Part shown: positions 1,563 through 9,759 of the stretch, in pieces
Numbering within the stretch: the first letter of the stretch is position 1
How the letters are laid out: every line of letters begins with the position of its first letter
DNA from: a virus
Direction: 5' to 3' (one strand)
IMG/VR virus record: IMGVR_UViG_3300043399_000371
Location: 36,285 to 100,284 of that record
DNA: 64,000 nt
Translations under genes and position numbers: made by a program
Notes under the pieces: model-generated
Told to the model about the DNA's origin: nothing
What the model saw: only the letters and a program-made list of their open reading frames with translations
Databases searched by the model: none

Positions 1563-2378
1563 TTACAATTTTCCCGCGAACATTGCTACTGCTTGCATAT
1601 TGCCGGTAAATGCATATGAGCCGATATGCTGTGTCTTAACCCAAGGGCATAGGAAGATTGATCCACCTAGTTTACGCCACATTTGACAGAACATATAATC
1701 TTCACTTAGGTAACGATCACTACCACCACCTGTAATGCTGTTCTCGCTATCGATTACTGTATCAAAGTATGCGTGAATATAACGTGATCCATCAAAATTT
1801 GCTTGTCCAACATGATCTGGTTTGTAGTGAATCATTTGATAAGCTTCCTGCATCTTGTCAAAAACATGACGCTTGATCATCATGTAGCCTGTGCCGATTT
1901 CAAGAACTTCTAGTGGCTCAGTTACTGAGAATTGTGTGGTGCCTTTAACCACATTGAAAACATATTCGCCAACAAGGTTTTCTAGTTCGCGTGGTTCAAT
2001 GTTTGGATTCTTTAGAACTGCTTCTTTGATATTTCCCCAATTGATTGACTTTTTGGGATATGGTGCGCCAATGATATCTTTATCCAAAGCAAGCATTGCC
2101 ATAACGTCTTGTGGATTAAAATTGATATCGGAATCAATAAAGAGCAAATGTGTATAATCTGTACGTAGAAATTCATCAACAAGATAATTTCTAGCCCTAG
2201 TAATTAGGGATTCATTGAAGAGAAATGAAAACTTTACTTCAATACCATAACGCGAAAAGGTATTCTGAAGATCTAGACATGATTTAATGTAGAGACCATG
2301 TGCCATGCCGCCATACATTGGTGTGGCAATAAAAATTTTGTTTTTCTTCAATTCATCAACGGATACTTTAATTTCCAT
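1563..2378 (-). CDS. GT-A type glycosyltransferase
   Basis: A 271-residue protein. The ATG at 2378 is chosen because GGAG sits 5 nt upstream; the open frame extends further only via a TTG. N-terminal KIFIATPMYGG is followed by a GT-A-like nucleotide-sugar region with the metal-binding motif LLFIDSDI and ATGAC-like GAPYPKK downstream, then aromatic-rich C-terminal sequence. This type is common in marine T4-like phages. Acceptor and donor are unknown. It is far from the glycan cluster at 30-43 kb and lies next to the dNMP kinase, so a role on DNA or on another target is possible but unproven. A terminator-like hairpin lies directly upstream, so its expression may depend on read-through. Confidence 0.7.
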   Translation of the reverse strand: MEIKVSVDELKKNKIFIATPMYGGMAHGLYIKSCLDLQNTFSRYGIEVKFSFLFNESLITRARNYLVDEFLRTDYTHLLFIDSDINFNPQDVMAMLALDKDIIGAPYPKKSINWGNIKEAVLKNPNIEPRELENLVGEYVFNVVKGTTQFSVTEPLEVLEIGTGYMMIKRHVFDKMQEAYQMIHYKPDHVGQANFDGSRYIHAYFDTVIDSENSITGGGSDRYLSEDYMFCQMWRKLGGSIFLCPWVKTQHIGSYAFTGNMQAVAMFAGKL

Positions 2379-2393
2379 AATAACTCCATAATT

Positions 2394-2429
2394 AAAAAAG
2401 GGAAAGCCATACAAGTATATAGCTTTCCC
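2394..2429 (-). terminator. Rho-independent terminator after the HTH gene
   Basis: On the minus strand GGGAAAGC (2429-2422) pairs perfectly with GCTTTCCC (2407-2400), followed at once by six T residues. It ends transcription of the small HTH gene and sits only about 15 nt before the glycosyltransferase start. Confidence 0.75.
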
Positions 2430-2451
2430 ACCTCTAGACTACATCAGGTTT

Positions 2452-2706
2452 TTAGAACTTTTTTGATGTGGCCTTTACTTGTTTTGATGTTGTTTTTGGG
2501 GTAGTGTTGAGAACGTAGAAGTATGTTTTTGTTCCATCTTTACGAACTTTGGTTTTTGATACAATATCATAACCGTCTTTGCGAAGTTCACTAACCCTTG
2601 CGCGGACATTACAGATACCAAAACGTGCCTGTGCTTGGGCAACAGTTAGAGTTGCGCCTTCTTTTTTGGATAGTGCGGTTAGGATTTGTTCTTTTGCTGT
2701 TTTCAT
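2452..2706 (-). CDS. Small helix-turn-helix DNA-binding protein
   Basis: An 84-residue basic protein. Residues about 5-55 look like the HTH_39 type winged helix: EQILTALSKKEGATLTVAQA, then ARFGICNVRARVSELRKDGYDI. The C-terminus is lysine/threonine-rich (KTTSKQVKATSKKF). It is probably a transcription regulator of the phage or host. The gene has its own strong sigma70-like promoter at 2754-2782 with a palindrome across the spacer, and a terminator after it. The layout, a single-gene unit with an operator-like palindrome, suggests self-regulation, which is inference. GGAG lies 6 nt before the ATG. Confidence 0.7.
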   Translation of the reverse strand: MKTAKEQILTALSKKEGATLTVAQAQARFGICNVRARVSELRKDGYDIVSKTKVRKDGTKTYFYVLNTTPKTTSKQVKATSKKF

Positions 2707-2727
2707 AAAAACTCCATAATGTTATTC

Positions 2728-2748
2728 GGCTAAGACCAATTCTTAGCC
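2728..2748 (-). promoter_or_regulatory. Hairpin in the leader of the HTH gene
   Basis: GGCTAAGA (2728-2735) and TCTTAGCC (2741-2748) form a perfect 8-bp stem with a 5-nt loop between the promoter and the HTH start codon. There is no T-run, so it is more likely an operator or mRNA structure than a terminator. Confidence 0.45.
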
Positions 2749-2753
2749 TACTG

Positions 2754-2782
2754 ATTGTAACACAGATTTGATTCTGTGTCAA
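2754..2782 (-). promoter_or_regulatory. Strong sigma70-like promoter with an internal palindrome
   Basis: TTGACA (2782-2777), a 17-nt spacer and TACAAT (2759-2754) on the minus strand drive the HTH gene. A 7-bp inverted repeat, ACACAGA (2760-2766) and TCTGTGT (2773-2779), fills the spacer and enters the -35, which is where a repressor operator would sit. Confidence 0.65.
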
Positions 2783-3943
2783 TTAAAATTCTTCAACCTT
2801 GTTCGGATCGGTTTCTGATTCTTTTTTGGATTCTTCTTCCTTATGAGATCCATCATCAACTTTTGTATATAGATCCAAGAATGATGCTTTTGTATCATCA
2901 TCAAAACGATTCAGACAAAGTGTGATTGCTTTAATTTTGTCCTTGAAGATCCCATATGTCTCGACAATATGCACTAGACGACGGGTAGAAATTACTTCAT
3001 CACAACCACCATCATCAAATGTTTTACGAATGACATCTGCCCATAGAACAAGCTTTTCGGCAAAGTTATCATCATCACAACCAACTGAAGAAAGTTCTTT
3101 TTTGATGATTTTCTTTTCTGTGTTTACTGGTGCCCAACCCTGTTCGATAGTATTGCGGAAACGCTCAAGGAAAGCTTCATTTAGAACATTGGTAAACATA
3201 TACCGACCATCATCAGAACCTTTACCTTTTGTATTTGCAGTAGCGAATACGGTAAACCCCTCTGATGGGGTAACAAGTTCACCTTTCTTTTTGAGCATGA
3301 AAGGTTTGCCTTCTAGAACACGTTGAAGGCTAGATAGGTTTTGTGCGCCATAATCAATCTCATCGATACATAGAACTGCACCTTGACGAGCGGCAGTAGT
3401 AACAGGACCATCTCGCCAAACCATTTGTCCATCGATTAGAACAAAGTTGCCTAGAAGATCCGACTCATCTGTATCGGGAGTCATAGACACACAAATGAAT
3501 TTGCGTTTTGCTTTGGCGCAAGCTTGTTCAATACTCATGGTTTTTCCGTTTCCAGAATGACCAGAGATGAAGACTGGAAAGAAACGATTTGACTTGACGA
3601 TTTCAAGAATATCGTTAAAGTTTCCAAATGGGACATAATTCTTGTACACTTTTGGTACAAGATCATCAAGTTCAATGTCTGTAGAGACTGAACTAATCCT
3701 GTTGTGTTCATGATCGTTTTTCAATGGGATTACCTGCGCTTGTTGTTTAGCCATATCCATAACTGATGCGGGAACTTTGTATAGTCCACGGGAGATTCGG
3801 TTTTCTGGATCATTGACGAACCATTGTGGTACTGCCATTTTGTTTTCACGGCAAACGTCAATAATTTCGGTTTTAGTGATTTCAGTCTTACCAAGACCGA
3901 TGATTAGAGAAATAAACTTTTCACGAGTTTCATTATAATTCAT
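2783..3943 (-). CDS. CobS/MoxR-like AAA+ ATPase
   Basis: A 386-residue protein from the ATG at 3943 (AAAGG upstream). The N-terminal about 100 residues hold a small domain with VPQWFVND. The AAA+ core follows: Walker A GHSGNGKT (128-135), Walker B LCIDEID (about 191-197), then a sensor-1-like VFATANT and an arginine-finger-like FLERFRNTIE. Marine T4-like phages carry this ATPase under the name cobS after the cobaltochelatase subunit. MoxR-type ATPases work with VWA-domain partners to insert metals or remodel complexes. The VWA gene lies directly upstream (start 6180), supporting a functional pair. The real substrate in phage infection is unknown. The C-terminus is acidic and lysine-rich. Confidence 0.82.
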   Translation of the reverse strand: MNYNETREKFISLIIGLGKTEITKTEIIDVCRENKMAVPQWFVNDPENRISRGLYKVPASVMDMAKQQAQVIPLKNDHEHNRISSVSTDIELDDLVPKVYKNYVPFGNFNDILEIVKSNRFFPVFISGHSGNGKTMSIEQACAKAKRKFICVSMTPDTDESDLLGNFVLIDGQMVWRDGPVTTAARQGAVLCIDEIDYGAQNLSSLQRVLEGKPFMLKKKGELVTPSEGFTVFATANTKGKGSDDGRYMFTNVLNEAFLERFRNTIEQGWAPVNTEKKIIKKELSSVGCDDDNFAEKLVLWADVIRKTFDDGGCDEVISTRRLVHIVETYGIFKDKIKAITLCLNRFDDDTKASFLDLYTKVDDGSHKEEESKKESETDPNKVEEF

Positions 3944-3962
3944 TTTATTTCCTTTTAAGCTA

Positions 3963-4001
3963 GGGTGGTATAAGATTATACCACCCAATTCAAGTTGTCA
4001 A
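3963..4001 (-). promoter_or_regulatory. Perfect 11-bp palindrome overlapping a promoter-like element
   Basis: GGGTGGTATAA and TTATACCACCC (3963-3986) are exact inverted arms with a 2-nt centre. The minus-strand TATAAT (3980-3975) lies inside the palindrome and TTGACA (4001-3996) lies 15 nt upstream, a short spacer. It may be an operator-promoter for the AAA+ gene, or a hairpin ending the VWA transcript; there is no clear T-run. Confidence 0.55.
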
Positions 4002-4005
4002 TAGA

Positions 4006-6180
4006 TCAGAAAGAAATGTCTTCAACAAATTTAGAAACCATGACCCGAGAGACATTACGCTTCTTATACATTTTCATGAAAGCATTCTTCAATTTGTTTG
4101 CAGTCATTGTACCATCAACTTCAATTTCAACATCATCAGACCTCAGATCTTGACCACCCAATACAAAGAAAAATTTAGAATATCCGGGATTGCTGGATAC
4201 AATAAAATTTTGTGCCTTTAGTGTTGCATAAATTTTATTGATGAGGTTGGTTGATGCAGCATGATCTTTAATCTCTTTTTCTTTAAAAGATACTCTATCA
4301 TCAAAAACAAATTTCTTTCTTAGATTGGATTTCAACTTCGATTGTGGTGCAACAAAAAACCCAATAACTTTTGATCCAGTCTTGTGTGTAAACCACTCAA
4401 GTAAAGCCTGAGTAACAAGTTGCCTTTGTTCATACACAAAAGAAAATTCCAATTTCTTTTGAAAATGTGTACTCTTATCCTGAATTACAACATTAGCGTT
4501 CCTATTATCAAAACTATTATAATTCAAATTATGATCGTAAAATGATTCTGTTCTATCAGAATCGCCATCCTGAACAATAACAAGATTGGTAATATCCAAA
4601 CCATGTTTTTTCTTGAATTCTACCATAACATCCGCAACAGCAATAATAGCTTCGTTTAGTGGAGTTGAAGAAAGTGTTTCGCTACGAGGTCTGCCGATAT
4701 AATTAAATGGCTCATAAGATTTCATGAGACACACCATATTCCACAAACAATCATTAAATTGTTTCTTGGACATATCAGAATTCAAATATTCCCTGAGTTT
4801 AACATAACCCAATGCGATATTATTTTTTTCAATTTGGAAAAATGTATTTTTTGTTTGGAAATATGAATCTTTTGGTATGGGTGGAATGTCATTATCAAGC
4901 CTAATGACACTAATATCATCATTGAAACACAATACCCTAAAAGGAATGTTCACCTTTCGACAGAACATAGATAGCACAAGGATCTGTTCGATAGAACCAC
5001 TCATGTTGTCTTCCATAGATCCACTACCATCAAGAAGAAGAATCAGACCATGCGATTTTCCTTTTGGAACAACCATAACTTTCTTGAAAATATTGTCATC
5101 GAATTTGTAGTTAGAAAGTTTGCTGATATCAATGTCGCCAGTATCGGAAACTTTGGTCTTTGAAAAAACTTTTGCAGCTTTCTTCATCTCAAATTCTTTA
5201 ACGAGAAGATCTACATATTTTTCATTTTTTTCTTTAAATTCTTTTAGATTTGTGTCAGCTACCTTTTGGGTAAGTCCATTATTATTATTAATTTTTTCCA
5301 TATAGAAATCACGAAGTTGTGATTGGACTTTTTGCCAAGGAGTGACGATCAAATCATTTTCTGGTTTAGGAATATTCACATAAACATATTTTTTACATTT
5401 GTCATCAACGAGAGATGCTTCATTTTCCCTGAATTTCTCATCTGTGTTACAAGTTGGGAAAAATTCTTCAAGAAGTTGTGCAATGTCTTCTGGAATAGTG
5501 ATTGATTCATCATTATCATTATCATTAATATATTCATCATCAAAGTAATCATCGTTATCAATTGCAGCCCTTTCAATCCCAAAGGAAAATGGGTCTGCAT
5601 TTTTCAGTTTGAATTGTTCTTTTTTGGAATACACCCAGATGTCATTTGTTAGAGAAATTACATCATCCCACGTTTCAAGGTTCTTTGTCCTTACAACAAA
5701 ACCCGATTCGATGTTATTGAATTTAATATTATATGTGTACTGTGATTTTGAATAGATGTTTAGACGGTCAATGAATGGCAGTTTGTTGACATCATCATTG
5801 CCGATACCAAAGAAATCCCGATCAAATAGAATCTTGTAAGCGGCAACGAATGATGCGCGAAGACCGGGGTAACGACGTTGGATTTTCTTTTCAATCCGAG
5901 CGTCTTCCACAACATTTAGAAAATGTTTGAAGCTTAGTGGTTTGTTGTCTTCAAGTACAGCATCATGCCATCCTTGAACTGGAGTGTACAGAGCATGGCC
6001 GACCTCATGACCCGTAAGCAGATCATAGATCTCACCAGTCATATCTTTCCAGATGGGAAGATAGAGAATTCGATTTTTTACATCGAACTTTGCGGTACTT
6101 AGTTTTTGATGCTCAACCGTAAGATTTTCGGTTGCCATCAATTTTGCAAGACGAGATTTTGATTGAGTTGTGTAGGTCAT
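4006..6180 (-). CDS. VWA-domain protein with HExxH metallopeptidase-like motif (CobT-like partner)
   Basis: A 724-residue protein from the ATG at 6180 (AGGATGG upstream). Near the N-terminus it has GHEVGHALYTP (H58-H62 as HExxH), followed about 35 residues later by NVVEDARIEK, a plausible third ligand as in zinc peptidases. The middle has an acidic stretch and a lysine-rich coiled region. The C-terminal half holds a von Willebrand A domain with a full MIDAS set: LLLDGSGSM (DxSxS), STPLNEA (Thr) and VIVQDGDSD (Asp). It looks like the CobT-type partner of the neighbouring AAA+ protein. Peptidase activity is inferred from the motif only. The gene has its own promoter/palindrome at 6183-6238. Confidence 0.72.
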   Translation of the reverse strand: MTYTTQSKSRLAKLMATENLTVEHQKLSTAKFDVKNRILYLPIWKDMTGEIYDLLTGHEVGHALYTPVQGWHDAVLEDNKPLSFKHFLNVVEDARIEKKIQRRYPGLRASFVAAYKILFDRDFFGIGNDDVNKLPFIDRLNIYSKSQYTYNIKFNNIESGFVVRTKNLETWDDVISLTNDIWVYSKKEQFKLKNADPFSFGIERAAIDNDDYFDDEYINDNDNDESITIPEDIAQLLEEFFPTCNTDEKFRENEASLVDDKCKKYVYVNIPKPENDLIVTPWQKVQSQLRDFYMEKINNNNGLTQKVADTNLKEFKEKNEKYVDLLVKEFEMKKAAKVFSKTKVSDTGDIDISKLSNYKFDDNIFKKVMVVPKGKSHGLILLLDGSGSMEDNMSGSIEQILVLSMFCRKVNIPFRVLCFNDDISVIRLDNDIPPIPKDSYFQTKNTFFQIEKNNIALGYVKLREYLNSDMSKKQFNDCLWNMVCLMKSYEPFNYIGRPRSETLSSTPLNEAIIAVADVMVEFKKKHGLDITNLVIVQDGDSDRTESFYDHNLNYNSFDNRNANVVIQDKSTHFQKKLEFSFVYEQRQLVTQALLEWFTHKTGSKVIGFFVAPQSKLKSNLRKKFVFDDRVSFKEKEIKDHAASTNLINKIYATLKAQNFIVSSNPGYSKFFFVLGGQDLRSDDVEIEVDGTMTANKLKNAFMKMYKKRNVSRVMVSKFVEDISF

Positions 6181-6182
6181 TT

Positions 6183-6208
6183 CCACCATCCTTTGTTGAA
6201 GATGGTGG
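6183..6208 (-). repeat. 8-bp inverted repeat in the leader of the VWA gene
   Basis: CCACCATC (6183-6190) and GATGGTGG (6201-6208) are exact inverted arms with a 10-nt loop just after the promoter -10. The near arm overlaps the ribosome-binding region of the VWA gene, so it could be an operator or an RNA element hiding the RBS. Confidence 0.5.
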
Positions 6209-6209
6209 A

Positions 6210-6238
6210 ATCATAACTGATGCAGAATTGGTTGTCAA
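6210..6238 (-). promoter_or_regulatory. Sigma70-like promoter for the VWA gene
   Basis: TTGACA (6238-6233), a 17-nt spacer and TATGAT (6215-6210) on the minus strand. The -35 overlaps the stop codon of the deformylase gene. The match to consensus is strong. Confidence 0.65.
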
Positions 6239-6783
6239 GTCATTCGTTTGTATCTTTTTAGAATTTTTTGTTGCTTCTTTCTTGCCAACATCAATGTGGT
6301 GTTCCCTACCCTATCAACAAATCGAACACCATTCAGATGATCCAATTCGTGCAAGAAACATCTAGCGGTAATTCCTTCAAGCCTCATTTGTTTCTCATCA
6401 CCGAATTCATTTTGAAAACTAACTTCGATCCATGATGGTCTCGGAACAGTCATGAAAAGTGCTGGAAAAGATAAGCAACCTTCTTTGTCTTTAACAACAT
6501 CTTCAGACATTGTTAAAACTTTTGGATTGAAACAAACCAATTCAAAATCTTCTGTTCCAATAACAAAAGCCCTCATTGGAATACCACATTGATTTGCGGA
6601 TAAACCAATACCAGAATACAACCTACGTGTCAAATTCAATCGCCTTGCTAGAGTAATTGTATCGAAACCAAAACTTGATACCTCTGGCATACGTTTAGAC
6701 AACATAGAAAAATCTTCACCATATAAAGGTAAAGGTTCTACTGTCTGATTCTCTTCTGTGTTAAATGTAATAAATTCACTCAT
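6235..6783 (-). CDS. def: Peptide deformylase
   Basis: A 182-residue enzyme removing the formyl group from new N-terminal methionines. All three family motifs are present: GIGLSANQCG (GxGLAAxQ), EGCLSFP (EGCLS) and FLHELDHLNG (HExDH), giving the Cys and two His metal ligands and the catalytic Glu. Start MSEF at 6783 is chosen because it forms an ATGA overlap with the stop of the 61-residue gene upstream. Phage deformylases are common in marine T4-like phages and are thought to speed processing of host or phage proteins during infection. The C-terminus is lysine/arginine-rich, lacking an extra domain. Confidence 0.92.
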   Translation of the reverse strand: MSEFITFNTEENQTVEPLPLYGEDFSMLSKRMPEVSSFGFDTITLARRLNLTRRLYSGIGLSANQCGIPMRAFVIGTEDFELVCFNPKVLTMSEDVVKDKEGCLSFPALFMTVPRPSWIEVSFQNEFGDEKQMRLEGITARCFLHELDHLNGVRFVDRVGNTTLMLARKKQQKILKRYKRMT

Positions 6784-6965
6784 AATACCCAATCCTCTGC
6801 AAATATTTCAGCATCTTCTTCTCTTTCAAAAGTGTCTACAAGATACTCACTATCATCATTCAATATCTCATGTCTCTCAACAAAATATACCTTTTTAATC
6901 ATATCGAATGAAATTATAGAAGTTCTTTTCTTATCAGCACTTTCATACACGCTAATTGTTTTCAT
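6780..6965 (-). CDS. Small hypothetical protein
   Basis: A 61-residue acidic protein (ends EREEDAEIFAEDWVL) with an MKTISVYESADKK start. I do not recognise a family. It overlaps gp46 upstream by 4 nt (ATGA-type) and the deformylase downstream by 4 nt, so it is translated as part of the gp47-gp46-deformylase operon. The acidic C-terminal half with a predicted helix could be a small protein-protein inhibitor or adaptor, but nothing proves this. Confidence 0.6.
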   Translation of the reverse strand: MKTISVYESADKKRTSIISFDMIKKVYFVERHEILNDDSEYLVDTFEREEDAEIFAEDWVL

Positions 6966-8674
6966 TTTACTATCCTTGAAAAATTTTTGACTTTCTCAAA
7001 CTTAATCACATCATCAAACTTTTCATAAAGTATATCACCTTTATGGGAGATAACAAATAGGTTGACATCTTCTAACATATGGAGAATGTTCATCAGATAT
7101 TCTGTTCCATTAGTATCTAGTGAGGAATCGAAGATCTCATCCAGAAACAATAGATTTGTATTTGTTGAATTTTTTAACTTTGCAATTGCTCTCCATGTCA
7201 ACATCAGAGACATATCAATTCTTTGTTTCTCGCCTTCAGAGAAATTATTATATGTGAACTCATCTCTGTGCCTAGACTTGATTGTTTCCTTAAAAGATTC
7301 ATCCAAATTAAAATTAACGAAAAATTCCAATGCAGATAAATACTTATTTACTAGTTTATTAATTACTGGTAAATACTGTTTAATGATTTTTGTCTTGATT
7401 CCATTATCCTTTAGAAGAGATGAAGCAACATCATAATATTCTTTTTCTTCTATAAGACTTTTCAAATGATTTTGTTTTTCTTTCAACTCTTTCTGGAGAT
7501 CGACTAATGTATTTTCATCCTCTACACGCAATGTTTTGGTTTCATTTAATTCTTCAATTTCCTTATTCAGTTTGGTAATATATTTGTTGGTTTCATTTAT
7601 AGCAGTATTATTCGAAGAGATCTTTACCTGTAATGCTTGAGCCTTTTTCAAAGCAACCAAAATGTCATCGAGTTTGTGCTGCTGTTCTTGAATCTTTTCT
7701 TCTATCTTTTTCAAGCCTTCTCTTGATTCTTTTATTTTTGAATCAAGTTTCTTTAACTCTTCTTTCTTAAAGTCATCATCAATTTTTTGACGGCAAGTCG
7801 GACAGTTATCGTTCTCGGTAAAAAATGCAGAATCGGTTTCTAGTCTTGACAAATTATTTTCGATCTTTGATTCGATCTTATTGATTTCTTTTATCTTAGT
7901 TTCGACTGAAGATTTGTCTGAAATCTTTTCTTGGTACTCCGACAATAGTGTAGTATTGGTTTCGTTGTCTTTCAAAAGTTTTTCAATACTTTCATTGTAT
8001 TTTTTAATTTCTTCCTTATACTTCTCGATCTTCTCATTATTGTTTTGCTTCAATGCTTCGATATGTTTTTTCTCTAATTCATATTTCTGCTTCAACAATT
8101 CAATTTCGTTCTTGACACTAGAAAGAAGATCCTTATTGTTTGATACTTTGTCTTTGATGATTGTATTCATCGTGGAGAAGATTTGGATGTCTAGTAAATC
8201 TTCAATGATTGCTCTTCTATCTCCAGCCGACAATTGCATGAATGGAACAAATGATGCGGAACCTAGAATCACGATCTGAGTAAAAGACTTGAAGTTAAAT
8301 TTAAGAATTGTCTTCTCCAAAACTTCCTGATAGTCTTTCATTGTGGATTCTTGGTTCAACAAATTGCCATCCTGAAAGATCTGAAATACATTAGGTTTGA
8401 TTCCACGAACAATCTTATATCGCTTTCCATTTGTCGAAAACTCAAGTTCAACCACACAATCTTTTTGATTGATGCTATTTACAAGTTGACCCTTATTCAC
8501 GCTACGGAATGGTTTGCCGAAAAGAGCGAAACACAATGCATCTAGAACGGTAGACTTTCCTGCACCATTCTCACCAATGATCAAAGAGTTCTTGTTGCTA
8601 TTTAGTTGAATCTCTGTCCAATAATTTCCAGAACTTAATAGATTCTTATACCTAATACATTCAAAAATAATCAT
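6962..8674 (-). CDS. gp46: Recombination endonuclease ATPase subunit gp46 (Rad50-like)
   Basis: A 570-residue SMC/Rad50-type ATPase. Walker A is GENGAGKST (34-42). Long lysine/glutamate-rich coiled-coil arms flank a zinc-hook CPTC (291-294). The C-terminal half has the signature NFSEGEKQR and Walker B LLFLDEIFDS. With gp47 it forms the complex that resects DNA ends for recombination-dependent replication and degrades host DNA. Its start overlaps the gp47 stop by 4 nt, keeping the usual T4 gene order 47-46. T4 gp46 has 560 residues, so this is full length. Confidence 0.95.
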   Translation of the reverse strand: MIIFECIRYKNLLSSGNYWTEIQLNSNKNSLIIGENGAGKSTVLDALCFALFGKPFRSVNKGQLVNSINQKDCVVELEFSTNGKRYKIVRGIKPNVFQIFQDGNLLNQESTMKDYQEVLEKTILKFNFKSFTQIVILGSASFVPFMQLSAGDRRAIIEDLLDIQIFSTMNTIIKDKVSNNKDLLSSVKNEIELLKQKYELEKKHIEALKQNNNEKIEKYKEEIKKYNESIEKLLKDNETNTTLLSEYQEKISDKSSVETKIKEINKIESKIENNLSRLETDSAFFTENDNCPTCRQKIDDDFKKEELKKLDSKIKESREGLKKIEEKIQEQQHKLDDILVALKKAQALQVKISSNNTAINETNKYITKLNKEIEELNETKTLRVEDENTLVDLQKELKEKQNHLKSLIEEKEYYDVASSLLKDNGIKTKIIKQYLPVINKLVNKYLSALEFFVNFNLDESFKETIKSRHRDEFTYNNFSEGEKQRIDMSLMLTWRAIAKLKNSTNTNLLFLDEIFDSSLDTNGTEYLMNILHMLEDVNLFVISHKGDILYEKFDDVIKFEKVKNFSRIVK

Positions 8675-9759
8675 TCTGTTTTTTCCATATTCAATGCTTC
8701 AATATAAATTTCTCTCATAATACTTTTCAACTTATCTGGATCGACATTAATGTTTTGTTGATCTATAAACTTTGTGATAATTGAAAGATTATCTTCTGCC
8801 TGATCAACATCAGTATCGTCCTCTGCTTGTTCTTCGTCCTTCTCGGTGAAATCTTCTACGATACCAATATCACAGACTCCTGCTTTATAAAAGTTATCAA
8901 CAACGAAATCGAAAAGGTATGGATCTTTCTTGTTCAAAGTTACGATCTTGATGTATGTGTCTTTCTTGGATTCATAGTCATAATTTTTCCAGAATGTCAT
9001 ATCATTAACAGTATCGTCATATGTAATTTTATGAAACATCTGATATGGATTTTTGATGAATTCAAGTTCACGTTTTTCTGGATCAAAAATGTGGAATCCT
9101 CGTTCATCATTCCAGTCGGACCATGTTAGTTCATAAGGTGTTCCAACATAGTACACATGACCGTCATCTGACTTGTGGTGAAAGTGACCAGACAACACCA
9201 TATCATATTTCATTAAGTCTTTCTTGCTTAGATGACCACCACGAAACACATTTCCACGATCCATCTCAAAACCATCAAGTTCGAAATGGCCGACACATAT
9301 TTGGGATCGACTATTCTTGATCTTGTCTAGAATTTCTTTTTCGTTCTCTTCACATATCCAAGGAATGACATCAATAGGAATTCCACTAGCAATACCAATT
9401 TTTTCAAAATCTCTGAAAATTTTGATGTTGTCATAACCATCTAATAGAAGGAGTGGTGAATTTACTTCTAATGTATTCTTAAATGAAACATCATGATTGC
9501 CCAAAAGAGCAAATAATCTGATTTCATATTTCTTCAGTTTATCGAAAAACATTTTCCGTGAATGATACAGAGAATTGAAATTCACAAACTTTCTTCTGTC
9601 AAACAAATCACCAAGCTGAATTACGGTGTCGATACCTCTTGAGATCAACTCTGGGAAAAATACGTTATCATAAAACTTCTCATAATAACGTAAAAAGTCT
9701 AGGGAATCTCCACGTACTCCAAAATGTGTATCACCAAGAATAGCTATTTTATTGCTCAT
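8671..9759 (-). CDS. gp47: Recombination endonuclease nuclease subunit gp47 (Mre11-like)
   Basis: A 362-residue calcineurin-like phosphoesterase with all metal-binding motifs in order: GDTHFG (9-14), LGDLFDRR, LLGNHD, VGHFELDG and LSGHFHH. The C-terminal about 80 residues are acidic (EEQAEDDTDVDQAED), then helical, fitting the gp46-binding region. It cuts DNA as the Mre11 partner of gp46. It overlaps gp55 by 11 nt at its start and gp46 by 4 nt at its end, so the three are translated together. Confidence 0.95.
   Translation of the reverse strand: MSNKIAILGDTHFGVRGDSLDFLRYYEKFYDNVFFPELISRGIDTVIQLGDLFDRRKFVNFNSLYHSRKMFFDKLKKYEIRLFALLGNHDVSFKNTLEVNSPLLLLDGYDNIKIFRDFEKIGIASGIPIDVIPWICEENEKEILDKIKNSRSQICVGHFELDGFEMDRGNVFRGGHLSKKDLMKYDMVLSGHFHHKSDDGHVYYVGTPYELTWSDWNDERGFHIFDPEKRELEFIKNPYQMFHKITYDDTVNDMTFWKNYDYESKKDTYIKIVTLNKKDPYLFDFVVDNFYKAGVCDIGIVEDFTEKDEEQAEDDTDVDQAEDNLSIITKFIDQQNINVDPDKLKSIMREIYIEALNMEKTE

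Follow-up and report, generated by a model that had tools for sequence, protein, structure and literature searches.

A phage AAA+ ATPase and its HExxH-VWA partner: a candidate protein-remodelling machine related to NorQ-NorD and CobS-CobT

Why would a virus carry an AAA+ ATPase of the CobS/MoxR type next to a protein that joins an HExxH motif to a von Willebrand factor A (VWA) domain? The question is raised by a stretch of 64,000 nucleotides from a T4-like aquatic virus, hereafter the window, which covers bases 36285-100284 of the 168-kb virus record IMGVR_UViG_3300043399_000371. The gene of the HExxH-VWA protein (724 aa; 4006..6180, ATG at 6180, stop at 4006) adjoins that of the ATPase (386 aa; 2783..3943, ATG at 3943, stop at 2783). 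Both are real open reading frames on the minus strand, placed as in the original prediction, which was made from the sequence alone and left the role of the pair between counter-defence, cobalamin metabolism and protein remodelling.

The two proteins form an already known pair, PHROG 249 (the cyanophage 'CobS') and PHROG 459 ('peptidase'), and their architecture, conserved motifs, pairing and promoter-like sequences are established here by computation. A machine that cuts or remodels proteins fits this evidence better than vitamin B12 synthesis, to which the pair is usually assigned. We give about an even chance to a phage-specific AAA+/VWA remodelling machine of the NorQ-NorD/CobS-CobT type, the VWA partner of which would possess a zinc-metallopeptidase-like N-terminal domain. 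We would best regard this partner as a candidate CobT-type zinc metallopeptidase with a NorQ-class protein for its motor, rather than as a subunit of a cobaltochelatase. What is added to the known pair is the retention of the zinc motif, its lack in cellular CobT, the missing CobN together with a class I ribonucleotide reductase (RNR), and consensus promoters across relatives; the novelty is moderate, and the mechanism is one that we infer.

A NorQ-class ATPase and a putative zincin-like partner

All features of the two proteins lie on the minus strand. The VWA protein begins with a predicted zincin-like helical domain (residues 10-195, 5596..6153), modelled by AlphaFold2 with local confidence (pLDDT) mostly of 78-96 from residue 21. 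Its HEVGH motif (residues 58-62, 5995..6009) is a putative zinc site within helix 49-65, and NVVEDARIE (residues 89-97, 5890..5916), in helix 84-103, would supply the second half of the metal site. The gluzincin-like arrangement, an HExxH helix with an acidic ligand further along the chain on another helix, is recognised here in sequence and secondary structure only, and zinc would be bound by this HExxH...ED set. An acidic, poorly predicted linker follows (residues 196-230, 5491..5595; pLDDT below 50 at 200-227). The VWA domain, delimited by the model and by matches in the PDB (residues 377-611, 4348..5052), contains a complete metal ion-dependent adhesion site (MIDAS) of the DxSxS-T-D form: D384, S386 and S388 within DGSGS (residues 384-388, 5017..5031), T506 (4663-4665) and D538 (4567-4569). 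Both the complete MIDAS and the N-terminal HExxH had been pointed out beforehand and are confirmed.

The model of the whole protein reaches a mean pLDDT of 85.7 and a pTM of 0.79, and its best PDB matches are the NorD VWA domains of NorQD complexes (9qhe, 1.1e-4; 9qh6, 6.6e-4), with the Rea1 MIDAS ranking lower. At the sequence level, the PHROGs profile 459 matched with 4e-165. Pfam, NCBIfam, PADLOC and a single-sequence PDB search returned nothing useful for this protein, and a PDB profile search gave acidic low-complexity stretches and other chance matches only.

The ATPase possesses Walker A (GHSGNGKT, residue 128, 3539..3562) and Walker B (LCIDEID, 3353..3373) motifs within an AAA_5 core (PF07728, 2.8e-20, 73 bits), followed by a CbbQ_C domain (PF08406) scoring 22.8 bits, above the cut-off of 20.6. 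It belongs to PHROG 249 (annotated there as 'porphyrin biosynthesis', 7e-104), and Foldseek places its model closest to CbbQ2 (9.6e-19) and NorQ (5e-18). Core, Walker motifs and C-terminal domain are those of the MoxR/CbbQ/NirQ/NorQ class, while the score against the CobS equivalog TIGR01650 is 69.5 bits for a cut-off of 558.55. Motifs, profiles and folds agree on a CobS/MoxR-like AAA+ protein paired with an HExxH-VWA protein, and the structural comparison with MoxR-VWA pairs that had been proposed as a check leads to NorD and to CbbQ/NorQ. Ahead of its AAA core, the ATPase has a confidently predicted domain of helices and strands (residues 1-56), which had no family match and in which the elements follow one another as in a winged helix.

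In NorQD, a finger of the VWA domain enters the NorQ pore, and rotation of this domain stretches the linker to the N-terminal domain (PMC13036017). N-terminal domain, flexible acidic linker and VWA domain follow one another in the window protein according to the same layout, and this correspondence suggests a motor that works alike and would bear a zincin-like head. NorQ-NorD and CbbQ-CbbO, of the MoxR class, provide the best structural matches of both modelled proteins and share the CbbQ_C domain with the ATPase; they differ by another N-terminal domain, and the window pair has no linked nitric oxide reductase or Rubisco client. In the mechanism that we propose, the AAA+ protein would form a hexamer in whose pore the VWA domain docks, as in NorQD, and ATP hydrolysis would rotate this domain relative to the N-terminal one, by way of the acidic linker. 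A client protein would be held by the MIDAS and cut by the HExxH...ED zinc site, or that site would be gated to cut. The machine may act on a host protein or on replication or transcription complexes. We infer early timing as well as proteolysis, hexamer and complex formation and action on a client, the machine being probably made early since both genes have host-type promoters of their own.

Conservation of the motif and of the pair

In an alignment of 79 family sequences, H58, E59, H62, N89, E92, D93, R95 and all MIDAS residues are invariant. Part of this set had been recruited with the bait peptide GHEVGHA, which biases HExxH counts from the second viral scan; these were therefore replaced by counts on loci picked through the AAA gene, without use of the motif. 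There, HExxH is present in all 49 complete N-termini, each with N..ED.RI[ED] or a close variant on its C-terminal side, and the sole exception is a 537-aa frame devoid of the N-terminal part. The middle residues vary (HEVGH, HEVSH, HECSH, HECAH, HEIGH, HETGH) around fixed H, E and H. Invariance in the alignment and retention in the AAA-selected set argue that HExxH and MIDAS are not there by chance, and an invariant Glu of the catalytic type points to a role beyond the storage of metal. The motif also persists in seven of nine remote phage proteins, those of SSU5, Rhizobium N1_10, CRP-810, Cobavirinae T5S1, an ICP2-like phage, Gordonia Woes and XG4. The peptidase role raised in the original prediction thereby gains from the conservation of HExxH...ED, and the activity itself stays putative at the level of sequence.

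Several observations weigh against a peptidase-bearing machine. No Pfam peptidase family matched the window protein above threshold, and DUF2201_N (PF13203) was touched by a single one of 18 relatives, with an E-value of 0.93. Two distant phage CobT proteins, those of Pseudomonas phage hairong and Stenotrophomonas phage ANB28, have lost HExxH, so that peptidase activity cannot be indispensable for every such pair. Finally, hhalign of the family with four DUF2201 proteins was weak (E 0.02). DUF2201, a putative metallopeptidase of bacteria with a VWA-like domain, resembles the window protein by HExxH...N.A.D..IN and DxSxS and goes with a MoxR ATPase, a P-loop ATPase gene adjoining it in at least two of the four loci read; the protein is shorter and has no long linker. 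We considered DUF2201 as an ancestor on account of the similar motif and did not retain it: because the profile match is weak, common descent is not established.

In hairong and ANB28 the motif became SEIAK and REVST, respectively, and the MIDAS is intact. In Pseudoalteromonas phage vB_Psh_XG4 (locus 5941-9493), the CobT-like protein appears rearranged, with HEVSH in a 350-aa open reading frame (7149-8198), and the AAA-like frame that follows (8573-9493) has a late start and no visible Walker A; the XG4 pair may be decaying or recoded.

Co-occurrence in related phages, which the original prediction had made a test, proved near perfect. Among AAA-selected contigs with at least 2.6 kb upstream, 46 of 46 contain the partner, at most about 0.5 kb away. 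Reciprocally, of 97 partner-selected contigs that extend far enough, 84 contain the AAA gene in the same orientation as the partner, as a rule 60-90 bases beyond its 3' end. The 13 remaining loci apparently had no AAA gene in the fetched flank; six of their records were searched whole, one (G014) having the gene elsewhere and five fragments of at most 62 kb giving no match, and every whole-searched record of at least 63 kb contains it. Phage records with the partner numbered 463 and those with the AAA protein 507, and both searches gave equal counts for Synechococcus phages (365), 'Cyanophage' (61) and Prochlorococcus phages (24).

The pair is core in Kyanoviridae and Pelagibacter phages. Its P-SSM4 counterparts are PSSM4_124 (cobS, T4-GC 150) and PSSM4_122 (peptidase, T4-GC 146), the same two families in the same VWA-AAA order as in the window, and the profile matches given above span most of both proteins and are accompanied by synteny. 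Cyanophages also share the neighbours gp47-gp46 upstream and gp45-gp44 downstream, a neighbourhood preserved in Kyanoviridae and in Pelagibacter phages Mosig and HTVC008M; identity with the named cyanophages and Pelagibacter phages amounts to 28-36% for the VWA protein and 45-62% for the AAA protein. The two genes are adjacent in the window, whereas pcyA, petE or other genes intervene in some cyanophages. Remote pairs are present in SSU5-type phage-plasmids (from Salmonella, Klebsiella and E. coli), ICP2-type vibriophages and Rhizobium, Pseudomonas, Stenotrophomonas, Roseobacter, Cobavirinae and Gordonia phages, where their neighbours often include a gene for DNA polymerase, ligase or helicase. 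A cellular origin of the pair was not retained, the scan of cellular contigs having given 10 loci only, mostly on contigs of metagenome-assembled genomes and taken as phage fragments.

CobS-CobT and the competing explanations

CobS-CobT (TIGR01650; PF06213 and PF11775) is likewise a pair of AAA+ and VWA/MIDAS proteins, to which the window family is linked by steps. The two CobT domains matched neither the window VWA protein nor its 17 aligned relatives, and proteins of SSU5-, CRP-810- and T5S1-type phages exceed the Pfam cut-offs for both. With hhalign, the window family matches the N-terminal domain of SSU5-like phage CobT (E 4.6e-16), SSU5-type phage CobT matches cellular CobT within the VWA half (2.3e-50), and the window family, when set directly against cellular CobT, reaches an E-value of 1.5e-4 at only 52% probability. 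Through SSU5-type phage CobT, both the N-terminal and the VWA domains of CobT are homologous to those of the window protein. In a MAFFT alignment, the SSU5 stretch RGFLDHEVAHILFTD lies over the cellular RGxADAxALRLRHHD; there cellular CobT has other residues in place of the three of HExxH, and usually retains the E of the ED that comes after. Unlike the phage partner, all 31 cellular CobT proteins (23 of alignment A5 plus eight others, from a single bacterial class) are devoid of HExxH at the aligned position. Cellular cobS precedes cobT where the order was read, in contrast with the VWA-then-AAA order of the window. Among phages, CRP-810, T5S1 and Gordonia Woes have the cellular order, AAA first, and SSU5, ICP2-like, Rhizobium and Kyanoviridae-like phages have CobT first. 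In the control genome of Caulobacter vibrioides, the CobT family was matched and CobN was not; its protein is perhaps a cellular CobT without cobaltochelatase.

This remote homology underlies the published proposal that viral CobS-CobT borrow host CobN to raise B12 production, in which phage cobT was called 'mistakenly annotated as a peptidase' (PMC8651126). The latter remark is doubtful, as it overlooks a conserved peptidase-type motif of which there is no instance in the 31 cellular CobT. The proposal itself appears improbable for several reasons. The ATPase falls far short of the CobS equivalog cut-off, and the zinc motif would have no role in CobT, where it is gone. Cobaltochelatase requires CobN, and neither CobN nor BchH was found in the 168-kb phage record, which is possibly incomplete, or in an E. 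coli control genome; yet the pair is present in E. coli phages and phage-plasmids, such as PhiR41_1. The phage record also encodes the large and small subunits of a B12-independent class I RNR (G000 1786-4438, outside the window), so that a B12-dependent RNR, or any B12-dependent nucleotide supply, is not an evident need of this phage. The SAR11 hosts of HTVC008M and Mosig are not known to produce B12. Cobalamin metabolism, one of the roles initially envisaged, is consequently disfavoured.

The same RNR, being of the diiron type, lends some weight to a metallocofactor chaperone: like NorQD or CbbQO, whose NorQ and NorD, the closest folds, form an iron-insertion pair, the two proteins would open a phage or host metalloenzyme such as class I RNR for metal insertion, HExxH holding the metal to be delivered. 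We regard this as unlikely, though the least unlikely of the alternatives, since metal delivery has no need of a catalytic feature such as the invariant HExxH Glu, and the RNR genes lie unlinked some 35 kb away in the record. Slightly less probable still is a Rea1/MoxR-like machine that disassembles replication or late-transcription complexes without proteolysis, its zincin domain being a structural or binding module. The constant place of the pair between gp46/gp47/gp55 and gp45 in almost all relatives, the polymerase, ligase or helicase neighbours in SSU5-, Cobavirinae- and ICP2-type phages and the two members that dropped HExxH speak for it; against it, the Kyanoviridae-like family strictly conserves both HExxH and the motif that follows. 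The early-type promoters would also suit a counter-defence effector, another role first suggested, which we hold to be very improbable: the pair is core, syntenic and nearly universal in its clade, within the replication/recombination block, and PADLOC gave no defence-family match beyond a weak one to the AAA core of the ATPase (E 3e-4).

Going back to the AAA+/VWA machine with a zincin-like head, we tentatively suggest, with rather less than even confidence, that phage 'CobS-CobT' are early AAA+-driven zinc proteases and that cellular CobT is a dead relative, its zinc site having been lost on co-option for cobalt insertion. In that case, the B12 'auxiliary metabolic gene' label would be wrong on hundreds of phage genomes, and metalloproteolysis gated by AAA+ and MIDAS would be a new combination in phages. 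As cobS is commonly listed among the auxiliary metabolic genes of marine phages and read as boosting host vitamin B12, a working zinc peptidase as partner would overturn this reading for many genomes. It would also make a core, nearly universal infection step of abundant aquatic viruses testable by point mutants, and could explain the source of the CobT N-terminal domain.

Promoters, palindromes and neighbouring genes

Each gene is preceded, as originally described, by a promoter-like element and a perfect palindrome. For the VWA gene, these are a near-consensus sigma-70 TTGACA-17-TATGAT (6210..6238, minus strand) and a 10+10 inverted repeat with a loop of 10 at the -10/+1 region and ribosome-binding site (6181..6210). 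For the AAA gene, TTGACA-15-TATAAT (3975..4001, minus strand), likewise near-consensus, is accompanied by an 11+11 repeat with a loop of 2 over the -10 (3963..3986). A third promoter, TTGACA-17-TACAAT with an 8+8 hairpin, precedes the winged-helix gene 2706-2452 (2728..2782, minus strand). In the whole 64 kb, these three are the only near-consensus promoters adjoining a hairpin of at least eight bases per arm.

Among relatives, 51 of 78 distinct AAA upstream regions score at least 11 of 12 (39 being perfect), as do 43 of 98 VWA upstream regions, against a background of 2.3%. The same score is reached by zero to three regions each for gp47, gp46, def and the glycosyltransferase gene, and at an intermediate frequency of about 20% for gp55, HTH and gp45. 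Relatedness inflates these counts, and the contrast with neighbouring genes of the same genomes holds. Matches are weaker, 8-10 of 12, in six named cyanophage and Pelagibacter phage records. These promoter-like sequences suggest that both genes are expressed early, apart from the surrounding DNA-metabolism genes; a literature search for the timing of cobS expression in cyanophages found no paper.

Of 77 AAA intergenic regions, 19 contain a palindrome with arms of at least nine bases, compared with 2% of background windows, and these palindromes differ among relatives in sequence and position. A shared operator was considered and is not claimed, as the palindromes of both genes and of relatives differ in sequence and half-site order. 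Since both window palindromes overlap -10/+1, a complete hairpin would form mainly in read-through RNA, which would favour an operator or an element akin to PeSL, the promoter early stem-loop of T4-like phages (cited in PMC4503421), rather than a hairpin at the 5' end of the mRNA made from that promoter. As far as that citation describes PeSL, the likeness lies in an early-type promoter with an adjacent palindrome before single genes, and the difference in the overlap with -10/+1 and in the variation among relatives. The palindromes belong to the promoter elements and not to the function of the proteins.

With names assigned by synteny with P-SSM4 and S-SSM4, the T4-like gene order in the window reads uvsW, gp55, gp47, gp46, peptide deformylase, VWA protein and AAA protein, followed 3' by a small winged-helix protein, a glycosyltransferase-like protein, a kinase-like protein and gp45. 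The peptide deformylase gene (6235-6780, minus strand), devoid of a consensus promoter, lies directly 5' of the VWA gene in many relatives. On the 3' side of the pair, the winged-helix protein (HTH_39, PHROG 4973; 2452-2706, minus strand) is likewise found in many relatives and is a possible regulator of the pair.

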